A stretch of 64,000 nucleotides of DNA, from the NCBI RefSeq assembly GCF_030814225.1, contig NZ_JAUSUR010000008.1:186001-250000 (forward strand), written 5' to 3'. A program made the position numbers and the translations under genes. Positions 26,061 through 35,140 of the stretch are shown here, piece after piece (position 1 is the stretch's first letter; each line of letters starts with the position of its first letter). The notes beneath the pieces were generated by a model that saw nothing but the letters and a program-made list of their open reading frames with translations, made no database searches and was not told the DNA's origin. Origin of the DNA: Breznakia pachnodae (GTDB lineage: Bacteria; Bacillota_I; Bacilli_A; Erysipelotrichales; Erysipelotrichaceae).

Positions 26061-26408
26061 TTAACGAATTTCTTTAATACGTGCAGCTTTACCACTACGT
26101 CCTTTTAAGTAACGTAATTTATTTCTTCTAACTTTACCACGACGAGTTACTTCAATCTTATCGATGATTGGTGAATGAACTGGGAAAGTTCTTTCTACTC
26201 CGATTTGGTTAGAGATTTTACGAACTGTGAAAGTTTCTGCAATTCCTCCACCTTTTTTAGCGACAACAACACCTTCAAAAATCTGGATTCTTGATTTGTC
26301 ACCCTCTTTAATTCTAACGTGGACTTTTACTGTACATCCACTTCTGAACTCAGGAATATCACTTTTCAACTGAGACTTTGTAACTTCATTAACTAAATTT
26401 AAATTCAT
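26061..26408 (-). CDS. rplS: 50S ribosomal protein L19
   Basis: Large-subunit protein at the 30S-50S interface. The 115 residues are standard, with [54 protein letters not shown] and a basic C-terminus ([15 protein letters not shown]). Normally it follows trmD directly; here an ABC transporter operon and T-box separate them. It has its own promoter and leader upstream. Confidence 0.98.
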
Positions 26409-26416
26409 TTTCGTTC

Positions 26417-26480
26417 TCCTTTTCTTCGTTATACACCTGGCTCATAATCAATGTTAGCGGAACCGTGTAGCCAACAGGCT
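26417..26480 (-). promoter_or_regulatory. L19 leader RNA
   Basis: The 5' leader of rplS contains a GTTGGC...GCTAAC hairpin around ACACGGTTCC, resembling the L19 leaders described in Firmicutes, which are thought to bind the L19 product. Read by eye. Confidence 0.55.
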
Positions 26481-26485
26481 TATAT

Positions 26486-26514
26486 ATAATAACAAAATTC
26501 AAACCTGTTGTAAA
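26486..26514 (-). promoter_or_regulatory. Promoter for rplS
   Basis: TTTACA, 17-base spacer, TATTAT on the minus strand, just upstream of the leader. Confidence 0.65.
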
Positions 26515-26563
26515 TGGTAAATTTGAAAATATCCTTTATTTTAGCCTGTTTTGTATTAAATAA

Positions 26564-26608
26564 CAAAAAAATAAGATTGATACTATATCAATAGCAATCA
26601 ATCTTATT
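26564..26608 (-). terminator. Terminator after the ABC transporter operon
   Basis: Perfect 12-bp stem (26570-26581 with 26597-26608) followed by a T run on the minus strand. Confidence 0.85.
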
Positions 26609-26612
26609 TCTT

Positions 26613-27413
26613 TTAATCTTTTGATAACAGCAATGTATCGTTATCCATTTCTTCTCCTACAGCATTTTCAAACATCTGTAGTAGATCAGAAACTTTTAGC
26701 TTACTTTTCTCTTCTCCACGAATATCAAAAATAATTTCTCCTTCATGAAACATAATCAAGCGATTACCATATGTAATGGCGTCTTTCATATTATGTGTAA
26801 CCATTAATGTAGTAAGCTGATCCGCTTCAACAATCTCTTTTGTAATCTGAAGCACCTTTTTTGCAGTCTTTGGATCTAGAGCAGCTGTATGTTCATCAAG
26901 CAATAATAGTTTTGGTTTCTGCAATGTTGCCATAAGAAGGGTTAATGCCTGACGTTGACCACCAGACAGAAGTCCTACTTTTGAAGACATCCGATCTTCC
27001 AGTCCAAGTTCTAATTTCCTTAACTTTTCTTTGAACATCTCTTTTTCGTTGCCTTTGATTCCCCATTTTAAACCTCGCCCAAATCCACGACGATTTGCCA
27101 TTGCAAGGTTCTCCTGAATTTCCATATCGGCTGCAGTTCCCATCATTGGATCTTGAAATACTCGTCCAATTAATTTACTGCGTTTGTATTCCGGATACAA
27201 TGAAATATTTTCATCTTCAATATAAATATATCCACAATCAATTGGATATACTCCAGCAATCATATTTAGAATGGTACTTTTACCTGCACCATTTCCACCA
27301 ATTACGGTTACAAAGTCTCCTTCTTCTAACTGTAAATCAATTTTATTTAGTGCTTTCTTTTCGTTGACTGTCCCCATATTGAAAGTCTTACTTACTCCTT
27401 TTATCTTAAGCAT
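26613..27413 (-). CDS. ABC transporter ATP-binding protein, TrpXYZ-type (predicted tyrosine importer)
   Basis: Cytoplasmic ATPase that powers the transporter formed with the two genes upstream. The 266 residues have Walker A (IGGNGAGKST) near 39, the ABC signature as LLSGGQRQALTLLMA near 144, Walker B (KLLLLDEHTAALD) and the switch His in MVTHNMKDA. Such ATPases pair with branched-type permeases and PF04392-type binding proteins. Its start overlaps the end of the permease gene by eight bases. The T-box upstream of the operon points to tyrosine as substrate. Confidence 0.93.
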   Translation of the reverse strand: MLKIKGVSKTFNMGTVNEKKALNKIDLQLEEGDFVTVIGGNGAGKSTILNMIAGVYPIDCGYIYIEDENISLYPEYKRSKLIGRVFQDPMMGTAADMEIQENLAMANRRGFGRGLKWGIKGNEKEMFKEKLRKLELGLEDRMSSKVGLLSGGQRQALTLLMATLQKPKLLLLDEHTAALDPKTAKKVLQITKEIVEADQLTTLMVTHNMKDAITYGNRLIMFHEGEIIFDIRGEEKSKLKVSDLLQMFENAVGEEMDNDTLLLSKD

Positions 27414-28335
27414 GTTCAGACTCCTTTCCTGTCAACTTTTTATACATACGTACTTGTTTCTGTTTATTTAGTAATACTGGTATTGTGAGGGCAACTCCTA
27501 CTAGAATTGCTGTTAATAATTTCAAATCATCAGTGTTCAAGCCAAGTTCTAATACGATTGCGATAATAATTCGATAGATTGCTGAACCTACAGCAATTGA
27601 AATTAGACGTACAGCAAAACTCTGTTTGCGCCCAAATAAAACCTCACCAATTACAATCGAAGCTAAACCAATAACAATTGCACCGGTTCCCATCTTCACA
27701 TCTGCGTATCCTTGAGATTGGGTAACCAAAGCTCCAGATAACGCAATAAGTCCATTACTGATCATCAAACCAATAATCTTTGTAGTATTAATATTCACTC
27801 CTAGTGCAGATACCATTTTTTCATTATTACCAGTTGCACGAATAGCAGAACCAATTTCAGTTCCAAAGAACCAGTACAAAACACCAACAATAAAAATTAC
27901 AATAATAATTCCTATTGCGAGTGTTGTATGTGCCGTACTTAGTCCTGTCATACTACTCAATGATTTAATAATTGTATCACTTTGAAGCAGTGGAAGATTT
28001 GAACGTTCTCCCATAATCCGCATATTAATGGAATACAATCCAATCTGGGTCAGTATTCCTGCCAGAATTGCAGGTATCTCAAATTTGGTAATTAATACTC
28101 CAGTAATTAATCCTGCAGCAAACCCAGTAAGTATTGCACCAATAATTGCTAGTACTGGTGATACACCATTCGTAATTAAAATAGCACAGGTTGCACCTCC
28201 AGTAGCAAAACTACCATCTACAGTCAAATCTGCAATATCTAAGATTCGAAATGTAACATATACACCAAGTGCCATAATTCCCCAAAGAATTCCTTGGCTG
28301 ATTGCATCTTGAATCGATAAAAATAAACCTGTCAT
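27406..28335 (-). CDS. ABC transporter permease, branched-chain/TrpY-like
   Basis: Membrane permease of the same transporter. The 309 residues form about eight to nine helices. Family marks are ALGVYVTFRILDIADLTVDGSF at the N-terminus (split here as ALGVYVTFRILDIADL plus TVDGSF) and the cytoplasmic loop RATGNNEKMVSALGVN that contacts the ATPase. The ATG has an AGGAGT site and follows the binding protein gene by eight bases. Confidence 0.92.
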   Translation of the reverse strand: MTGLFLSIQDAISQGILWGIMALGVYVTFRILDIADLTVDGSFATGGATCAILITNGVSPVLAIIGAILTGFAAGLITGVLITKFEIPAILAGILTQIGLYSINMRIMGERSNLPLLQSDTIIKSLSSMTGLSTAHTTLAIGIIIVIFIVGVLYWFFGTEIGSAIRATGNNEKMVSALGVNINTTKIIGLMISNGLIALSGALVTQSQGYADVKMGTGAIVIGLASIVIGEVLFGRKQSFAVRLISIAVGSAIYRIIIAIVLELGLNTDDLKLLTAILVGVALTIPVLLNKQKQVRMYKKLTGKESEHA

Positions 28336-28343
28336 ATATACTC

Positions 28344-29336
28344 CTATTCTTCAATAATAGTTGCTTTATCTAATAATTCCTTTGGAATTGTAATTCCTAA
28401 TTCATCAGCAACCTTTTTGTTGATTGTAAGTTCACAATCTTCTGCAGCCAGATACTCAATTGGCATATCAGCAGGTTTTGCATCACCATTTAATATTTTA
28501 GCAGCTTGAACTCCTGATAAATATCCCAGGTTGTAGTAATCAATACCATAAGTAGCTAAACCACCATTGGTAACCATACCACTTTCACCAACAATACATG
28601 GCAAGTCATTTTCGCTTGCTACCATTGAAATTGTACTCATACCTTCTGCCATCATATTATCTGTTGGAATATAGATTGCATCCACTTTACCAACTAAAGA
28701 TTGAGTAACTTGTTGAATCTGACTTAAATCAGATACTTTTGCTTCTGTATATTCTAATCCAGCAGCCTCAATTGCTTTCTTTGCTAAATCGGCTTGGAAT
28801 CTAGAGTTATCCTCAGCATTTGTATACATAACTGCTACTGTTTTTGCATCTGGAAGCAATTGTGTCAACAAATCAATTTGTTCTTCTACAGGTGTTAAAT
28901 CGCTTGTCCCCGTTACATTTCCTCCAGGTTTATCATTAGAAGTAACCAATCCAGAGTTTTCAGGATCTGTAACTGCCGAAATAACAATTGGAATATCTGA
29001 AGTCTTTTGAGCAACTGCCTGTGCTGCAGGTGTTGCGATTGCGTAAATTAAATCATTTCCATCGTTTACTAATTTATTAGCAATTGTTTCCGGAGTAGAT
29101 GCATCTCCTTGAGCATTCTTAAAATCAATACTGATGTTCTCACCATCAACATATCCTTCATCCTTCAAACCATCAATAAAACCTTCATATGCCTGGTCTA
29201 ACGCAGGATGCTCAGCATATTGAATAACTCCAACCTTTAGTGTTTTCTCTCCATCTGCTGTGTCATCACCATCGCTACATCCAACAATTACTGTACACAT
29301 ACTTAATGCTAATAATAGCTTATATACTTTCTTCAT
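28344..29336 (-). CDS. ABC transporter substrate-binding lipoprotein, TrpX-like
   Basis: Extracellular binding protein anchored as a lipoprotein. The 330 residues have a signal peptide with the lipobox VIVGC (Cys20) and a PF04392-type periplasmic-binding fold: VGVIQYAEHPALDQAYEGF, QGDASTPETIANKLV, PIVISAVTDPENSGLV, GNVTGTSDLTPVEEQ, and TYGIDYYNLGYLSG. TrpX relatives are linked to tryptophan, but the T-box before this gene reads a Tyr codon, so tyrosine or a Tyr precursor is the better guess. The ribosome site (GAGAGGAG) lies right after the T-box terminator. Confidence 0.93.
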   Translation of the reverse strand: MKKVYKLLLALSMCTVIVGCSDGDDTADGEKTLKVGVIQYAEHPALDQAYEGFIDGLKDEGYVDGENISIDFKNAQGDASTPETIANKLVNDGNDLIYAIATPAAQAVAQKTSDIPIVISAVTDPENSGLVTSNDKPGGNVTGTSDLTPVEEQIDLLTQLLPDAKTVAVMYTNAEDNSRFQADLAKKAIEAAGLEYTEAKVSDLSQIQQVTQSLVGKVDAIYIPTDNMMAEGMSTISMVASENDLPCIVGESGMVTNGGLATYGIDYYNLGYLSGVQAAKILNGDAKPADMPIEYLAAEDCELTINKKVADELGITIPKELLDKATIIEE

Positions 29337-29375
29337 ACACTTCTCCTCTCATAATATTTTTTTCTTCCGTAAAAC

Positions 29376-29624
29376 AAAAAAAGTCCTCCAATAGAGGACG
29401 ACTAAGCCGCGGTACCACCTCTGTTTGATATAGTTAGCTATATCATCTCACAAGTACAAACTTACAGGGTAATGGTTGTTAACCAAGATAGCCTACTAAC
29501 AATTGTATTCGGTATCTAACTCCATGATGTATTCAGTTTTTATCTTGTGCTATTTTCACCAACCATAGCATCTCTGCATGCCAATAAAAACTTACTATTT
29601 CACTTCTTCGTTTTTGTTTTATTT
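29376..29624 (-). promoter_or_regulatory. T-box riboswitch with UAC (Tyr) specifier
   Basis: Transcribed leader that senses uncharged tRNA and switches a terminator. Stem I has the AGTA bulge and a specifier loop GAA-TAC-A (codon at 29529-29531). The antiterminator carries the T-box AGGTGGTACCGCGG (29407-29420), followed by the terminator GTCCTC/GAGGAC and seven T (29383-29399 plus tail). The T-box base after TGG is T, which pairs with an A73 discriminator as in tRNA-Tyr; bacterial tRNA-Trp usually has G73. The same GAA-XXX-A spacing in the alaS leader gives GCT (Ala), which supports the reading frame. Confidence 0.85.
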
Positions 29625-29630
29625 ATGTTT

Positions 29631-29659
29631 ATACTATGATATTCTGAAAACTTTGTCAA
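29631..29659 (-). promoter_or_regulatory. Promoter of the T-box transporter operon
   Basis: TTGACA, 17-base spacer, TAGTAT on the minus strand. Confidence 0.75.
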
Positions 29660-29681
29660 TGAATAATGAAAATAATGAAAG

Positions 29682-29725
29682 AAAAATTCATCACTTTCAT
29701 TATTTTTCAATAACAAGTGATGAAT
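29682..29725 (-). terminator. Terminator after trmD
   Basis: Perfect 11-bp stem (29686-29696 with 29715-29725), 18-base loop, then TTTTTC on the minus strand. Confidence 0.75.
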
Positions 29726-29736
29726 TACATTTATAA

Positions 29737-30465
29737 TTACTTCATCTTCTCTTCTTCAATTACTTCTGATAAGAGCTTACTTTCTTCTTTATTTAACTCT
29801 TTCTTGTCTAATAAATCTGGTCGACGCAAATAGGTTTTACGAATAGATTCTTTCAAACGCCATTTACGAATATTTTCATGATGGCCACTCAATAAGATAT
29901 CAGGAACTTTCTGTCCTTCAAACTCAATTGGACGTGTGTATTGAGGGTATTCCAATAATCCATTTTCATATGAATCATCCTCATGACTTGTTGTAGTAAT
30001 AACACCATCGTGCAAACGAATCATCGCATCACAAAGTACCACAGCAGCTGTTTCACCACCAGTTAACACATAATCTCCAATTGATATCTCTTCATCCACA
30101 TAACTGCGAATACGTTCATCAAAACCTTCATAATGACCACACAAGACTATAACATCATCACTTTGCGCTAATTCATGTACTTTCTGTTGGTTTAATGGCG
30201 CTCCCTGTGGCGTCATCATAATAACTTTTGTGTCTTTTTGACGGTTTGCTTTAATTGCATCAACAATTGGCTGACAAGTTAATAACATCCCTGCTCCACC
30301 ACCACAAACAGTATCATCTACATTATTGTGTTTATCTAAGGTATAGTCACGAAAGTTAACACTACTGAAATCAACATGCTTATTATCAATTGCTCTTTTA
30401 ATAATAGATGTATTTGTAAAAGAATCAAAGAACTCCGGAAATAATGTCAGTACCGTTATTTTCAT
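29737..30465 (-). CDS. trmD: tRNA (guanine37-N1)-methyltransferase TrmD
   Basis: SPOUT-fold enzyme that methylates G37 of tRNA and prevents frameshifting. The 242 residues start ITVLTLFPEFFDSF and contain DDTVCGGGAGMLL, LCGHYEGFDERI, the trefoil-knot segment EISIGDYVLTGGETAA, and SGHHENIRKWRL. Length is standard. The ATG overlaps the rimM stop codon, as in the conserved rimM-trmD pair. rplS, which usually follows, is displaced by the transporter operon. Confidence 0.98.
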   Translation of the reverse strand: MKITVLTLFPEFFDSFTNTSIIKRAIDNKHVDFSSVNFRDYTLDKHNNVDDTVCGGGAGMLLTCQPIVDAIKANRQKDTKVIMMTPQGAPLNQQKVHELAQSDDVIVLCGHYEGFDERIRSYVDEEISIGDYVLTGGETAAVVLCDAMIRLHDGVITTTSHEDDSYENGLLEYPQYTRPIEFEGQKVPDILLSGHHENIRKWRLKESIRKTYLRRPDLLDKKELNKEESKLLSEVIEEEKMK

Positions 30466-30953
30466 AACAGTCCCTCAATCACTTCAATATCAATTCGTTT
30501 ATTTTCTATATCCACATTCTTAATAAATTGATCAACATATGGAACCAGAATCGTCTTGTTGATCCGTAATATTGGATTTGCAGCTGTATCAATAACATCT
30601 TCTACTTCACCTAGCAGATTATCATCCTGATCATAAACCGAACACCCCTTTAATTCAAAGAAATAATAACCTTCATCTAATTCCTCAATATTATTACGAT
30701 CAATATACAACTCGCTTCCCTTCCAAATCTCTACTTTATTAATATCTTCAAAACCATCAAAAGTAACCAATACCATATCTTTATGTTCACGATATGTCTT
30801 AACTTTTAAAATTATTTCTTTATTTTGAAACAACAAAATTAACTCATTTCCTTTTTTAAATCGTTCATCATTAAAATCACTTAAAGATTTAATTTTCAAT
30901 TCCCCTTTAAGTCCATGTGTATTCACTATAATTCCAACTTTAATTTTATCCAT
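30462..30953 (-). CDS. rimM: Ribosome maturation factor RimM
   Basis: Assists 30S assembly and binds S19. The 163 residues show an N-terminal beta-barrel (VGIIVNTHGLKGELKI), a linker, and the PRC-barrel (FFELKGCSVYDQDDNLLGEV to LVPYVDQFIKNVDIENKRI in two blocks). Sits in the rpsP-khpA-rimM-trmD operon; trmD is coupled by an ATGA overlap. Confidence 0.95.
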   Translation of the reverse strand: MDKIKVGIIVNTHGLKGELKIKSLSDFNDERFKKGNELILLFQNKEIILKVKTYREHKDMVLVTFDGFEDINKVEIWKGSELYIDRNNIEELDEGYYFFELKGCSVYDQDDNLLGEVEDVIDTAANPILRINKTILVPYVDQFIKNVDIENKRIDIEVIEGLL

Positions 30954-30985
30954 ATTATACTCCTAAAAAAAGGATGCTAAGCATC

Positions 30986-31231
30986 CTAGTATGATTCAAA
31001 TTTAATTGTAATCATTTTGTTTTCTTTACGTGATGCTATCGACATCATCTGACGAATACTACTCGCCATCATTCCACGACGACCAATTAAACGAGCAACA
31101 TCATCTGAATTCGCATATACATGTAGCAAAACCTCATTTTCATTTAATGTTGACATTACTTTAACTGACAGACTATCTTTATCATCAACGATTGGTGTAA
31201 TGAGATCTAAAATTGTTTTTTCGTAATTCAT
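30986..31231 (-). CDS. khpA: KH-domain RNA-binding protein KhpA (YlqC)
   Basis: Small RNA chaperone that pairs with KhpB in many Gram-positives and affects cell elongation. The 81 residues form a single type II KH domain with the variant GXXG loop ARLIGRRGMMASSIRQ. It stands between rpsP and rimM, its usual place. The ribosome site for its ATG falls at the end of rpsP. Confidence 0.94.
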   Translation of the reverse strand: MNYEKTILDLITPIVDDKDSLSVKVMSTLNENEVLLHVYANSDDVARLIGRRGMMASSIRQMMSIASRKENKMITIKFESY

Positions 31232-31234
31232 AAA

Positions 31235-31507
31235 TTATTTAGAAAATTTTTCGTCGTGAATTTTCTTCATAATTCCGTTTTTTGACAACATACTTCTTAC
31301 AGTATCTGATGGTTGTGCACCATTTCTTAACCATTTCAAAGCTAATTCTTCATCAATTGTAATTTCTGCAGGGTTATTGTTAGGATTATATGTTCCAATC
31401 GCTTCAATAATTCTTCCATCACGAGGACTTCTTGAATCAGCAGCAACGATTCTGTAGTAAGCATATCCTTTTTTACCCATTCTTTTTAATCTTAATTTAA
31501 CAGCCAT
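31235..31507 (-). CDS. rpsP: 30S ribosomal protein S16
   Basis: Early-binding small-subunit protein. The 90 residues start [20 protein letters not shown] and include [19 protein letters not shown] and [21 protein letters not shown] site ten bases before the ATG at 31507 decides the start; the in-frame codon at 31534 lies close to the promoter. First gene of the khpA-rimM-trmD operon. Confidence 0.97.
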
Positions 31508-31536
31508 TTTATTAATTCTCCTTTTATTCCTCACTT

Positions 31537-31564: not shown

Positions 31565-31585
31565 GCATTTTTGCTGTACACCTAT
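31554..31585 (-). terminator. Hairpin at the end of the comG operon
   Basis: ATAGGTGT/ACACCTAT stem with an inner AGCA/TGCT helix; it overlaps the comGG stop. The following tail (TCTTATTG) is only moderately T-rich. Confidence 0.5.
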
Positions 31586-31992
31586 AAATAATCATAACTA
31601 ATAATTTTATGATTACTTGAATCATATCTAAGTTGTGAATAAATCTTTAGTTGACCGCCATCATATATTTGAATAGTATATGATTCTATTTCAGGTGTAA
31701 TTAAGATTTTAAAACTATCATAATACAATTCTTTGGCTTCAACTACTATTTCCTCTTCATCTTCAAACTCATCAAAACTTTCTTCTTCCTCAAATATCTC
31801 CTCTGTATCTTCTTCATATGATCTCATAGATAACTTTATCTGATGAATTGCATACAACTCTGCATATGCAAGATTTTCATTTTCAACTCTAATTGACTTT
31901 GCTTTCACATACAACATTGAAGTAAACCCCATACATATGGATAATAACATAATTCCATAAATACTTATAAATCCTTTTTTATTCACATCCAA
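31582..31992 (-). CDS. comGG: Competence pseudopilus minor pilin ComGG-like, with acidic insert
   Basis: Last gene of the comG operon. The 136 residues begin with a short basic leader (MDVNKKG) before a hydrophobic helix FISIYGIMLLSICMGF, as in type IV pilin-like proteins processed by ComC. Residue five of the mature part is not Glu, as is common for ComGG-type pilins. Unusual is a very acidic stretch at about 60-85 (EDTEEIFEEEESFDEFEDEE). It overlaps comGF; the start read here is TTG at 31992, and an in-frame GTG two codons later is an alternative. Assigned mainly from position. Confidence 0.75.
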   Translation of the reverse strand: MDVNKKGFISIYGIMLLSICMGFTSMLYVKAKSIRVENENLAYAELYAIHQIKLSMRSYEEDTEEIFEEEESFDEFEDEEEIVVEAKELYYDSFKILITPEIESYTIQIYDGGQLKIYSQLRYDSSNHKIISYDYL

Positions 31993-32392
31993 TCACTCGC
32001 TTTTCTTCTGTTTGATTTTTATGATGATACTGTAGATAGAGACAATTATCATAACGAGAAAAAATAACCGATTTTAAATCTTTCATAAACACCTGGTATC
32101 CTGGGGTAAGAATTAACTTATCATCTTTTTGATACAAACATAATTCATTATTCATATAGTCGAAGCAAACTCGTTGATCATCAATCGTTATTGACGATGA
32201 TAATACATAAATTAAACGCAATTGACGAATACTTACCTCATCTTCACCATAATGAAAGTCATAATCAATTTTACTAACAAGCTGTAAATAACCACTAATT
32301 AGCAATACTGATATAGATACCACAAGTAACCCTAATATTGTCTCTATTAGGGTAAAACCCTTATTATTCGATTTCTTTGTAGAATACTTCAC
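31979..32392 (-). CDS. comGF: Competence minor pilin ComGF-like
   Basis: Prepilin-like protein of the DNA-uptake pseudopilus. The leader ends in KSNNKG followed by FTLIETILGLLVVSISVLLI, a type III signal sequence with Glu5. The body has the ComGF-type pattern RQLRLIYVLSSSI...VCFDYMNNELCLY. About 137 residues from GTG at 32392, which has GAGG nine bases upstream; in-frame ATGs further upstream lack such a site. It overlaps comGE and comGG. Confidence 0.8.
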   Translation of the reverse strand: MKYSTKKSNNKGFTLIETILGLLVVSISVLLISGYLQLVSKIDYDFHYGEDEVSIRQLRLIYVLSSSITIDDQRVCFDYMNNELCLYQKDDKLILTPGYQVFMKDLKSVIFSRYDNCLYLQYHHKNQTEEKRVIGCE

Positions 32393-32543
32393 GTATGCAT
32401 TCCTCATCATTAGAATAATCAATCTCTGTTGTTTTTATATGTGTAATTCCTTTTATAGAAGCACTGATAACCATAATTAAAATAACTGTAATCTGAAACA
32501 ATAAAATTGACTCCATCATAATAAACCCTTTTCTATTTAACAT
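32364..32543 (-). CDS. comGE: Short competence prepilin-like protein in ComGE position
   Basis: The 59 residues start MLNRKG followed by FIMMESILLFQITVILIMV, a type IV prepilin leader and helix with Glu5. After the helix only about 30 residues remain, which is short for ComGE. The name rests on operon position between comGD and comGF. The ATG at 32543 is the likely start, with GGAAGTGGGA upstream. Confidence 0.7.
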   Translation of the reverse strand: MLNRKGFIMMESILLFQITVILIMVISASIKGITHIKTTEIDYSNDEECIREVFYKEIE

Positions 32544-32919
32544 AAATATTCCCACTTCCAAGATTAATTACAACTTCTTTTTGACTATCTGCACTTTTAC
32601 ATAGAATTGTTTGAGCCATATTCACATTCCCTCTTTCATTAAAACTGATTTCATGAGTAGTACACATAGTACTGTTGGATAAGCTTATTGTACGTTCATT
32701 AATCATAATACTGCTTCCTTCAATGTTAACGACTACCTGTTCCTTATTTTCAATTGCTTCAATCTGTGCCTGTAGCAAATAATCTTTCAGTTTCTCACAT
32801 TCAAATCTTAATAATACTTTGCTGTTTACTTGTGATGGAATCAGAACTGCAATACTGCCAATAATAACAAATACAAACAGCGTCTGAATCAAAGTAAATC
32901 CTTCCCTATTTACTCGCAC
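32533..32919 (-). CDS. comGD: Competence minor pilin ComGD-like
   Basis: Pseudopilus subunit. The 128 residues carry leader RVNREG and helix FTLIQTLFVFVIIGSIAVLIP; residue five of the mature form is Gln instead of the usual Glu, seen in some ComGD proteins. The rest fits the GspH/ComGD pattern (LLQAQIEAIENKEQVVVNI, then IMINERTISLS). Start is GTG at 32919 with GGTGGAG six bases upstream. It overlaps comGC and comGE. Confidence 0.8.
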   Translation of the reverse strand: MRVNREGFTLIQTLFVFVIIGSIAVLIPSQVNSKVLLRFECEKLKDYLLQAQIEAIENKEQVVVNIEGSSIMINERTISLSNSTMCTTHEISFNERGNVNMAQTILCKSADSQKEVVINLGSGNIYVK

Positions 32920-33211
32920 TTGCTTCTCCACCTTGGATAGTTATTGTCTCTCCATCTGGACAACGTCTCTGACTATCTTTTAAATATCCCTTGTTGATAA
33001 GCTGATCAATACTTGATGGTGTCTCTAATGTTTCTACTTCATACAACAATATCTGCGAGTTTACAACTTCCACCAATGCTTCACACCCTTTGTTATCAAT
33101 TACTTCTTTTTTCTGCTGTATTTGTGGTAATGTAAGCAAAAATATTAATGCAATAATTGTTAATACAATAATCATTTCTAAAATCGTAAATCCCTTCTTC
33201 AAGTTCCTCAC
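32906..33211 (-). CDS. comGC: Major competence pilin ComGC
   Basis: Major subunit of the transformation pilus. It has a short basic leader ending LKKG and the helix FTILEMIIVLTIIALIFLLT with Glu5, followed by two Cys (KGCEALVE, RRCPDGETITIQGGE) as in Bacillus ComGC, where they form a disulfide. About 101 residues from GTG at 33211, which overlaps the comGB stop (GTGA); a TTG at 33202 would give 98 residues, the Bacillus length. An ATG further upstream would give an implausibly long leader. Confidence 0.92.
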   Translation of the reverse strand: MRNLKKGFTILEMIIVLTIIALIFLLTLPQIQQKKEVIDNKGCEALVEVVNSQILLYEVETLETPSSIDQLINKGYLKDSQRRCPDGETITIQGGEASASK

Positions 33212-34236
33212 ATCCTTTCTAACATTTGTAATGGAACCAGCATTATCTGATATACACATATAACTAATATACCTACAAAACTATACGAGATGAGTTGAAC
33301 CAAAACACTAACTTTTCTAATCTGATTCATCCATTGCTTTTCTTGTAAATCTCTATATGTAATTAAGGAATCACGAAATGTATTTGTTGAAGAACCAAGG
33401 GTAAAGTGTAACTTAAAGTTCTTTGAAATCATTGGATTATTTTGAATCGATTCCATCATCTCAACCCCATTCTGCAGATCATAATAGATTTTCTTAACTA
33501 CAATAAACAATAATGGTTGATCATTCACATTCTGAAGAAACTGAAATGCATGCTTTGTACTCATTCCATGTTTATCTAATTCAATTAAATAATTGCTGAG
33601 ATAATAAGACATCCACTCTCTAATAATCCCAACATAACGAACAAAGATTAAACCAACCGAATACATTAGTTTCTTTGACAATTTACACAGTACAACTAAA
33701 ACAATTAAAAGTAGTAGTACTCCAAGCAAAATTAGTGATAAATAATTGATTAATGAAACTATTTCAAATATAACACTTCCATCAACTTCGAAATTTTGAA
33801 TCAACTGAGGAATAATTACATTGGAAAACATAATTACTGAGAAGAAAGAAACAACAAGAATAAACAATGGATAAGCAGTTTGTTTGATTAGTTTCTTTCG
33901 AATGTCTTGTTCAAACTGATACATTGCTATTGCACATTGTAGTGCGTTAGCAATACTTGTAGTATTTAAGAAGAATGTAACAAATACTTTTAAACGCCCC
34001 TTACAACTGTCTTCAATAATCTTCTCAATTGATTCTCCTTGTTCGATTGCAATAAGAATATGTTCATCATCCTTATTCAACAACTGCAATGCATGGTGTA
34101 AGGAGTACCCTTTTGAAATCAACTGTGCAAAATACATCCATTGCGTTATATTAAGTGATAATGTCACTTTGTGCGGATTCTTTATCAATCCAGCCTTTGC
34201 TAACTGCATTTTTAATCTTTGTTTTAATATCAGCAT
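33208..34236 (-). CDS. comGB: Competence pilus polytopic membrane protein ComGB
   Basis: Platform protein of the pseudopilus, GspF family. Two GspF domains are visible (about 40-150 and 230-330), with helices FILVVSFFSVIMFSNVII, ILLGVLLLLIVLVVL and the C-terminal VQLISYSFVGILVICVYQIM. The start is uncertain: the ATG at 34236 has an AAGGG too close to it and overlaps comGA by 86 bases; an internal TTG or GTG may be used. Family assignment is firm. Confidence 0.9.
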   Translation of the reverse strand: MLILKQRLKMQLAKAGLIKNPHKVTLSLNITQWMYFAQLISKGYSLHHALQLLNKDDEHILIAIEQGESIEKIIEDSCKGRLKVFVTFFLNTTSIANALQCAIAMYQFEQDIRKKLIKQTAYPLFILVVSFFSVIMFSNVIIPQLIQNFEVDGSVIFEIVSLINYLSLILLGVLLLLIVLVVLCKLSKKLMYSVGLIFVRYVGIIREWMSYYLSNYLIELDKHGMSTKHAFQFLQNVNDQPLLFIVVKKIYYDLQNGVEMMESIQNNPMISKNFKLHFTLGSSTNTFRDSLITYRDLQEKQWMNQIRKVSVLVQLISYSFVGILVICVYQIMLVPLQMLERM

Positions 34237-35140
34237 ATCCCTTTGGAAGTGTATTACTCTCTAACACTTCCTTTAAATCCTCCTTTTCTAATATTTCATA
34301 GATGCAGACTCTACTTTCACTATCTTTTGATTTAAAGATTCTCTGATTTGTTACACCAGTTACCGTTTCTTTTAAATCAAGTTTTGAAATACCAAACTCC
34401 TCTAACCGTAATAATGCTTCTTTACAACTTTTCGCATGAATGGTTGTAAAGATCATATGCCCACTCAATGCACTTCTTATCAACATCTTTGCAGTTTCTT
34501 CATCTCTGATCTCACCAATCATAATTACGTCAGGATCATGTCTTAGCAGTTGTTTAATACCTTCACGATAATCAAAATTTAATCGTTCATTAATCTGAAG
34601 TTGCAGATAGTTATCACTTTTAATTTCTACTGGATCTTCCAGACTAATTACATTCAATTGTTCTCTTTCTGCTATCATCTCTAATACAGCATGTAATGTT
34701 GTACTCTTACCACTACCGGTTGGCCCACTTACCAGAATTAAACCACTGCGAAAATTTGTCCATGAGTGAAATATATCATTTTGTTTCTTCTCTTTACTCA
34801 GTTGATCAATTTCTATTTTAGGATGATTATTCAATACTCTTAGCACTCCGGACTGTGATTGTAATGTACGCAAGTAAGAAAATCGAAAATGTAATTCTTT
34901 ATTTTTATAAATATAAGAGAAGTTTCCACTTTGAGGTAATAGAGAATTCCCTAAATCAAGATTAGCTGTAAACTTCAAATAATGAAATAAAGTATCATTC
35001 AATTTCTTATCCTGAATTGCTATAAAACCCTGCAACCCCCGTACCTTTATCTTTAGTTTTCCTTTTTCCAGTAGAAAATGAACATCACTGGCATTGTGTT
35101 TCACTACATACTTTAATAACGTGTTTAATTTCTTACGCAT
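34151..35140 (-). CDS. comGA: Competence pilus assembly ATPase ComGA
   Basis: Cytoplasmic secretion ATPase (GspE/PilB family) that drives pilus assembly for DNA uptake. The 329 residues have Walker A (SGPTGSGKSTTLHA) near 140, the Asp box, Walker B (DPDVIMIGEIRDEETAKM) and the His box TTIHAKSC. The zinc-Cys motif and N-terminal domain of larger PilB proteins are absent, as in Bacillus ComGA. Start ATG at 35140 has GAGGTGA. First gene of a seven-gene operon with overlapping reading frames. Confidence 0.95.
   Translation of the reverse strand: MRKKLNTLLKYVVKHNASDVHFLLEKGKLKIKVRGLQGFIAIQDKKLNDTLFHYLKFTANLDLGNSLLPQSGNFSYIYKNKELHFRFSYLRTLQSQSGVLRVLNNHPKIEIDQLSKEKKQNDIFHSWTNFRSGLILVSGPTGSGKSTTLHAVLEMIAEREQLNVISLEDPVEIKSDNYLQLQINERLNFDYREGIKQLLRHDPDVIMIGEIRDEETAKMLIRSALSGHMIFTTIHAKSCKEALLRLEEFGISKLDLKETVTGVTNQRIFKSKDSESRVCIYEILEKEDLKEVLESNTLPKGYADIKTKIKNAVSKGWIDKESAQSDIIT

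Follow-up and report, generated by a model that had tools for sequence, protein, structure and literature searches.

A tyrosine-specifier T-box leader ahead of a TrpX-type ABC importer operon in Breznakia pachnodae

Among the binding proteins related to TrpX, CD0873 of C. difficile, SP1069 and VC_1101 are reported to bind tyrosine, tryptophan and phenylalanine, respectively (PMC6816091). According to the accessible part of that report, tyrosine is bound in the CD0873 crystal (6HNI), with a KD of 94 uM, and its hydroxyl is bonded by Glu263, a position occupied by Ala in both SP1069 and VC_1101; at a second position, Gln284 of SP1069 admits tryptophan, Tyr is found in CD0873 and VC_1101, and this residue in CD0873, Tyr279, is described as blocking tryptophan. 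A thermal-shift screen of 20 amino acids in the same source found that tyrosine alone raised the melting temperature of CD0873. This protein has been reported as an adhesin, and the available parts of the papers on it mention no T-box; control of aromatic uptake genes by SigL has been suggested in C. difficile (PMC7438776, available in part). T-box control is described for a related three-gene importer family, trpXYZ of S. suis, which responds to amino-acid limitation (PMC9382623). Tyrosine T-boxes, for their part, are reported to control transporters of the NhaC family (Wels 2008, PMC2494555), although these are secondary transporters unrelated to the ABC importer considered here; in the accessible part of that survey's table, the tyrosine row holds NHAC and NSS, and among the aromatics ABC transporters stand in the tryptophan row. 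Tyrosine T-boxes, T-box-controlled trpXYZ operons and a tyrosine-binding relative are each already known, but a partial literature search, with TBDB and RegPrecise outside it, found no published report of a tyrosine or phenylalanine T-box on the TrpX-type transporter family.

The locus described here lies in a window of 64,000 nucleotides (the whole stretch of DNA analysed) from a genome of 4.30 Mb in 22 contigs, 97.3% complete and with 5.7% contamination. Its features are as follows.

29631..29659, minus strand: promoter-like site TTGACA-17-TAGTAT ahead of the leader (-35-like hexamer TTGACA at 29659-29654)
29391..29617, minus strand: T-box leader, RF00230 (covariance model, 127.5 bits; same match on locus L005)
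29554..29564, minus strand: Stem I apical-loop motif GGTTGGTGAAA (covariance-model alignment)
29529..29531, minus strand: specifier triplet UAC (Tyr), GAA before it and A after it (covariance-model alignment, tyrS alignment and ruler)
29408..29417, minus strand: T-box bulge sequence TGGTACCGCG, variable base T at 29414 (covariance-model alignment)
29376..29399, minus strand: intrinsic terminator, stem 29399-29383, then T-run to 29376 (one found, 0.1 expected)
28344..29336, minus strand: TrpX-type substrate-binding lipoprotein, 330 aa (NF041285, PF04392; aligned pocket residues Glu251 with CD0873 Glu263, Tyr267 with CD0873 Tyr279)
27406..28335, minus strand: ABC permease (PF02653)
26613..27413, minus strand: ABC ATPase (PF00005)

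The leader match (29617..29391) exceeds the Rfam gathering score of 93 and is full-length, covering RF00230 positions 1-219 of 219; upstream of the lipoprotein gene, the 5' arm of the terminator overlaps the 3' arm of the antiterminator. The minimum free energy of the leader RNA is unremarkable on its own (z 0.32), and therefore plain minimum-free-energy folding was set aside and the T-box assignment is based on the family model and the conserved motifs. Promoter-like sites were about as frequent as expected by chance (2 found, 2.1 expected), so the leader promoter is suggested mainly by its position. The span 29376-29659 given in the original prediction is right, running from the -35-like TTGACA to the end of the terminator T-run, and the specifier loop that it had read as GAA-TAC-A is found letter for letter at 29534-29528, with TAC at 29531-29529. 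Specifically, the covariance model, which had been named as the check on this reading, places UAC, one of the two tyrosine codons UAC and UAU, in the specifier bulge of Stem I, directly 3' of GAA and one base ahead of the 3' helix, and no other triplet such as ACA or TGG.

The register of the specifier was compared with that of the genome's own T-boxes, of which there are 25 matches, 22 of them above the gathering score. The genes behind them were named by passing 20 proteins through NCBIfam, where 19 matched a family and one (L004) was unmatched; among the remaining five, the window protein was named by family search and the other four by eye. The UAC of the transporter leader shares its alignment column with the UAC of the tyrS T-box, and these columns read GAA-UAC-A in tyrS (identical to the transporter leader), GAA-UUC-A in pheS and UGG in trpS. 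As had been claimed, the alaS T-box in the same window (63830-63634) has GCT, for Ala, in the same columns of the covariance-model alignment. A plain alignment leaves about 10 of the 25 T-boxes out of register through an extra base. A ruler consisting of a triplet, five bases and a GGAG-like element was also applied; although two or more triplets usually stand in each of its candidate lists, the expected codon is among them in 19 of the 20 T-boxes for which the gene points to an amino acid (the expectations being taken from gene names by the report author), and the one miss is trpS, where the spacing is six bases. Tyrosine as the sensed amino acid is thus upheld by the covariance model, the tyrS alignment and the ruler. 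Within the same set, the hisS T-box (L018, G000 C8:111517-111716) reads GAC (Asp), which would fit a predicted hisS-aspS operon sensed via tRNA-Asp.

The lipoprotein is, like CD0873, of the PF04392 type (E 2.6e-84), and it has CD0873 (6HNI, 6HNJ, 6HNK) as its closest solved sequence (phmmer against the PDB, E 5.5e-76), and only three PDB proteins fall below E 0.001: CD0873, then SP1069 (3LFT) and VC_1101 (3LKV). Glu251 and Tyr267 occupy the positions of CD0873 Glu263 and Tyr279, and the pocket, as judged from these aligned residues, is of the CD0873 (Tyr) type rather than the Trp type. Tyrosine import is proposed because the lipoprotein shares the Glu with which CD0873 forms a hydrogen bond to the tyrosine hydroxyl; since Glu-bearing relatives with a phenylalanine specifier exist, and since loss of a C. 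difficile relative is reported to go along with lower uptake of both tyrosine and phenylalanine (PMC5951980, available in part), phenylalanine may also be carried.

Very probably, then, a canonical transcriptional T-box senses the charging of tRNA-Tyr(GUA), and the operon behind it imports tyrosine, perhaps with some phenylalanine; both the tRNA response and the transported substrate are what we infer from the leader and the pocket. Uncharged tRNA-Tyr would pair with the leader twice, its anticodon with the Stem I UAC and its ACCA end with UGGU; this pairing would stabilise the antiterminator, and RNA polymerase would read into the lipoprotein-permease-ATPase operon; with charged tRNA, the terminator at 29399-29376 would form. 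Domains predicted as prephenate dehydrogenase (PF02153) and prephenate dehydratase (PF00800) are also present in the genome, and therefore uptake of aromatic amino acids need not be essential.

A broader sample of relatives allows the specifier to be set against the pocket. The window protein was searched against 198 genomes of the class (53 matched at 1e-20) and 315 genomes of the order (209 matched at 1e-40); regions fetched from among the matches listed were joined with 80 titled loci of a contig scan and with a search by the TrpX family model, giving 243 unique binding-protein genes, a set biased towards the window protein. T-boxes were detected with a profile that was based first on those of this genome and later on family members, and a match was found at 95 of the 243 genes, two of them without Stem I. 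Because pattern-only specifier finding missed or over-called cases, specifiers were counted in alignment columns: the remaining 93 T-boxes read UUC (42), UAC (35) or UGG (16), with no others. The contig scan, which bears on Clostridia, gave a T-box match in three of its 80 named loci (L186, L189, L191), and the TrpX family model found 30 loci in 296 genomes of the class, all of whose T-boxes are in the window's family and order.

The position of Tyr267 is Tyr in all 93 proteins. At the other pocket position, Glu accompanies the UAC specifier in 35 of 35 cases (the window included) and Ala accompanies UGG in 16 of 16, and behind UUC the residues are Glu (30), Cys (5), Val (5) and Trp (2). Fisher's test gives p values of 1e-13 (Tyr against Trp) and 3e-4 (Tyr against Phe), on rows that are related. 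Specifically, the 16 UGG rows form one clade, and this association is therefore a single event; moreover, these proteins have Tyr, not the Gln of SP1069, so the published two-residue rule alone does not predict tryptophan. Of the 148 unique genes at which no T-box was detected, 137 encode Glu as well, which, together with the 30 of 42 phenylalanine-specifier proteins, makes this residue partly a subfamily trait. Further specificity columns proposed by a mutual-information search were judged to be clade differences.

The most probable alternative is transport of tyrosine and phenylalanine to about the same extent, with a specifier that only marks the starvation signal of the lineage, in which case UAC would say little about substrate preference. 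This is a serious possibility, if a somewhat less than even one. With the Glu column left out of a quick maximum-likelihood tree, at least 13 switches between UUC and UAC specifiers (a difference of one base) are counted over 77 proteins, and in nine independent tree pairs the pocket follows the change in three, opposes it in none and is unchanged in six (sign test, p 0.25). For instance, within genus g17 four pairs that set the leaders of L202 or L207 (UUC) against those of L064, L199 or L217 (UAC) show 85-92% identity, and the pocket segments of the five proteins are the same or nearly so. Specifiers thus often switch without a pocket change, so phenylalanine may be taken up too, and the lower uptake of both tyrosine and phenylalanine in C. 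difficile points the same way. Against equal transport stand the response of CD0873 to tyrosine alone in the thermal-shift screen and the loci in which both sensors occur together.

There are 12 such loci, with 313-470 bases between two binding-protein genes that each have a T-box ahead of them, one reading UUC and the other UAC (UUC first in eight, UAC first in four). Glu is present in all 12 proteins behind UAC and absent from 10 of the 12 behind UUC, and therefore in tandem loci the protein goes with its sensor; of the two exceptions, one is in G243, of the window's own genus. An Rfam rescan of five of these loci (L306, L307, L308, L310, L311) placed both T-boxes above the gathering score, and in the six fetched in full (L306-L311) one permease gene and one ATPase gene follow the pair. 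At L221/L311 (G213), a tandem pair, both T-boxes have UGGA, which is unexpected for A73 or G73 tRNAs.

That the window operon represents a modular aromatic importer in its single-gene form appears to us an evenly balanced possibility. In such a module, the RNA sensor and the pocket would evolve semi-independently, and the two T-boxes of a tandem locus, one in the leader and one internal, would share one permease and one ATPase; if so, the choice of the binding protein that loads the one shared channel would lie with two amino-acid signals. No published report of a two-sensor, one-channel arrangement was found in a partial literature search. T-box specifiers serve to assign transporter substrates, and such assignment (i) seems to work for tryptophan versus tyrosine, (ii) seems to work for most tandem Phe/Tyr pairs, the pocket in both cases differing with the sensor, and (iii) may fail in single-copy genes, where the specifier changes between Tyr and Phe with the pocket unchanged. 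The transporter family offers natural pairs for testing sensor-transporter co-evolution.

It is very improbable that the specifier has been misread and that the operon is a true TrpX system importing tryptophan. Its best NCBIfam match does carry the TrpX name (NF041285, E 1.6e-104), but at 349.5 bits the lipoprotein is below the curated equivalog cut-off of 390, which was exceeded in none of the 296 genomes of the class, and the TrpX label is thereby corrected. The trpXYZ operon of S. suis is described as a tryptophan importer under a tryptophan T-box (PMC9382623); however, the Streptococcus operon has a Trp specifier and its pneumococcal relative the residues Ala and Gln, whereas the window operon has a Tyr specifier with Glu and Tyr, and the covariance model finds no UGG in the specifier loop. 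The original prediction of a tyrosine rather than a tryptophan importer therefore holds as far as the pocket type goes, but because 30 of the 42 phenylalanine-specifier relatives have the same Glu, the importer may carry phenylalanine as well as tyrosine.

The base after TGG, which had been offered as a second independent position excluding tryptophan, turns out to be a poor guide. The leader has T (29414), as had been read, and this fits the A73 of tRNA-Tyr, which in this genome ends in ACCA (tRNA-Trp ends in GCCA); the test is weak, however, because T also occurs with G73 tRNAs and is thus compatible with tryptophan. Indeed, the trpS, asnB, argG and hisS T-boxes, with Trp, Asn, Arg and Asp specifiers, carry T despite their G73 tRNAs, and of the genome's T-boxes, those that have an assigned gene and correspond to a G73 tRNA number five (Asn, Arg, Ser, Asp, Trp), four with T and one with C. 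T follows TGG in 13 of the 16 tryptophan T-boxes of the transporter family, and TBDB reports U in 46% of tryptophan T-boxes, read as a G:U wobble (PMC7778990, available in part). On the strength of trpS, these family members and TBDB, the base was rejected as independent evidence against tryptophan: it fits tyrosine and excludes little, and the binding protein offers a better second argument for tyrosine than this base does.

The genome also seems to own a separate Trp-sensing operon, although the different contigs and the 5.7% contamination make a shared cell less than certain. On contig C1 (L088 976-4735, G000), a T-box is followed by genes for a lipoprotein, a permease, an ATPase and a second lipoprotein; the T-box reads AAA-UGG-A with UGGC and scores 85 bits, below the gathering score, and the pockets have Ala and Tyr in the first lipoprotein and Val and Tyr in the second, which follows the ATPase gene. 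This operon is a further argument against tryptophan as the substrate of the one in the window.

A specifier frame off by one, with AUA (Ile) or ACA (Thr) as the true codon, is more improbable still: TBDB considers frames -1, 0 and +1 (PMC7778990, available in part) and several of the genome's own T-boxes carry one extra base after GAA, but the covariance-model bulge fixes frame 0 here, as does the spacing to GGAG, which holds for 19 of the 20 own T-boxes with an expected codon, and an aromatic codon stands in the specifier column of all 93 family T-boxes.

The idea that the leader is a recent copy of the genome's own tyrS T-box was rejected, since its identity to that T-box is 0.40 but lies at 0.55-0.59 for the leaders of three related transporter genes, which suggests that the leader descended with the transporter. 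The operon sits between trmD and rplS, inside a ribosomal cluster rpsP-rimM-trmD-rplS (window 26061-31534), and none of the 92 other transporter loci checked gave a trmD, rplS, rimM or lepB match. Beside the ribosomal cluster, at window 31582-35140, the list of open reading frames shows genes that, by eye, look like a comG-like (competence-pilus) cluster.
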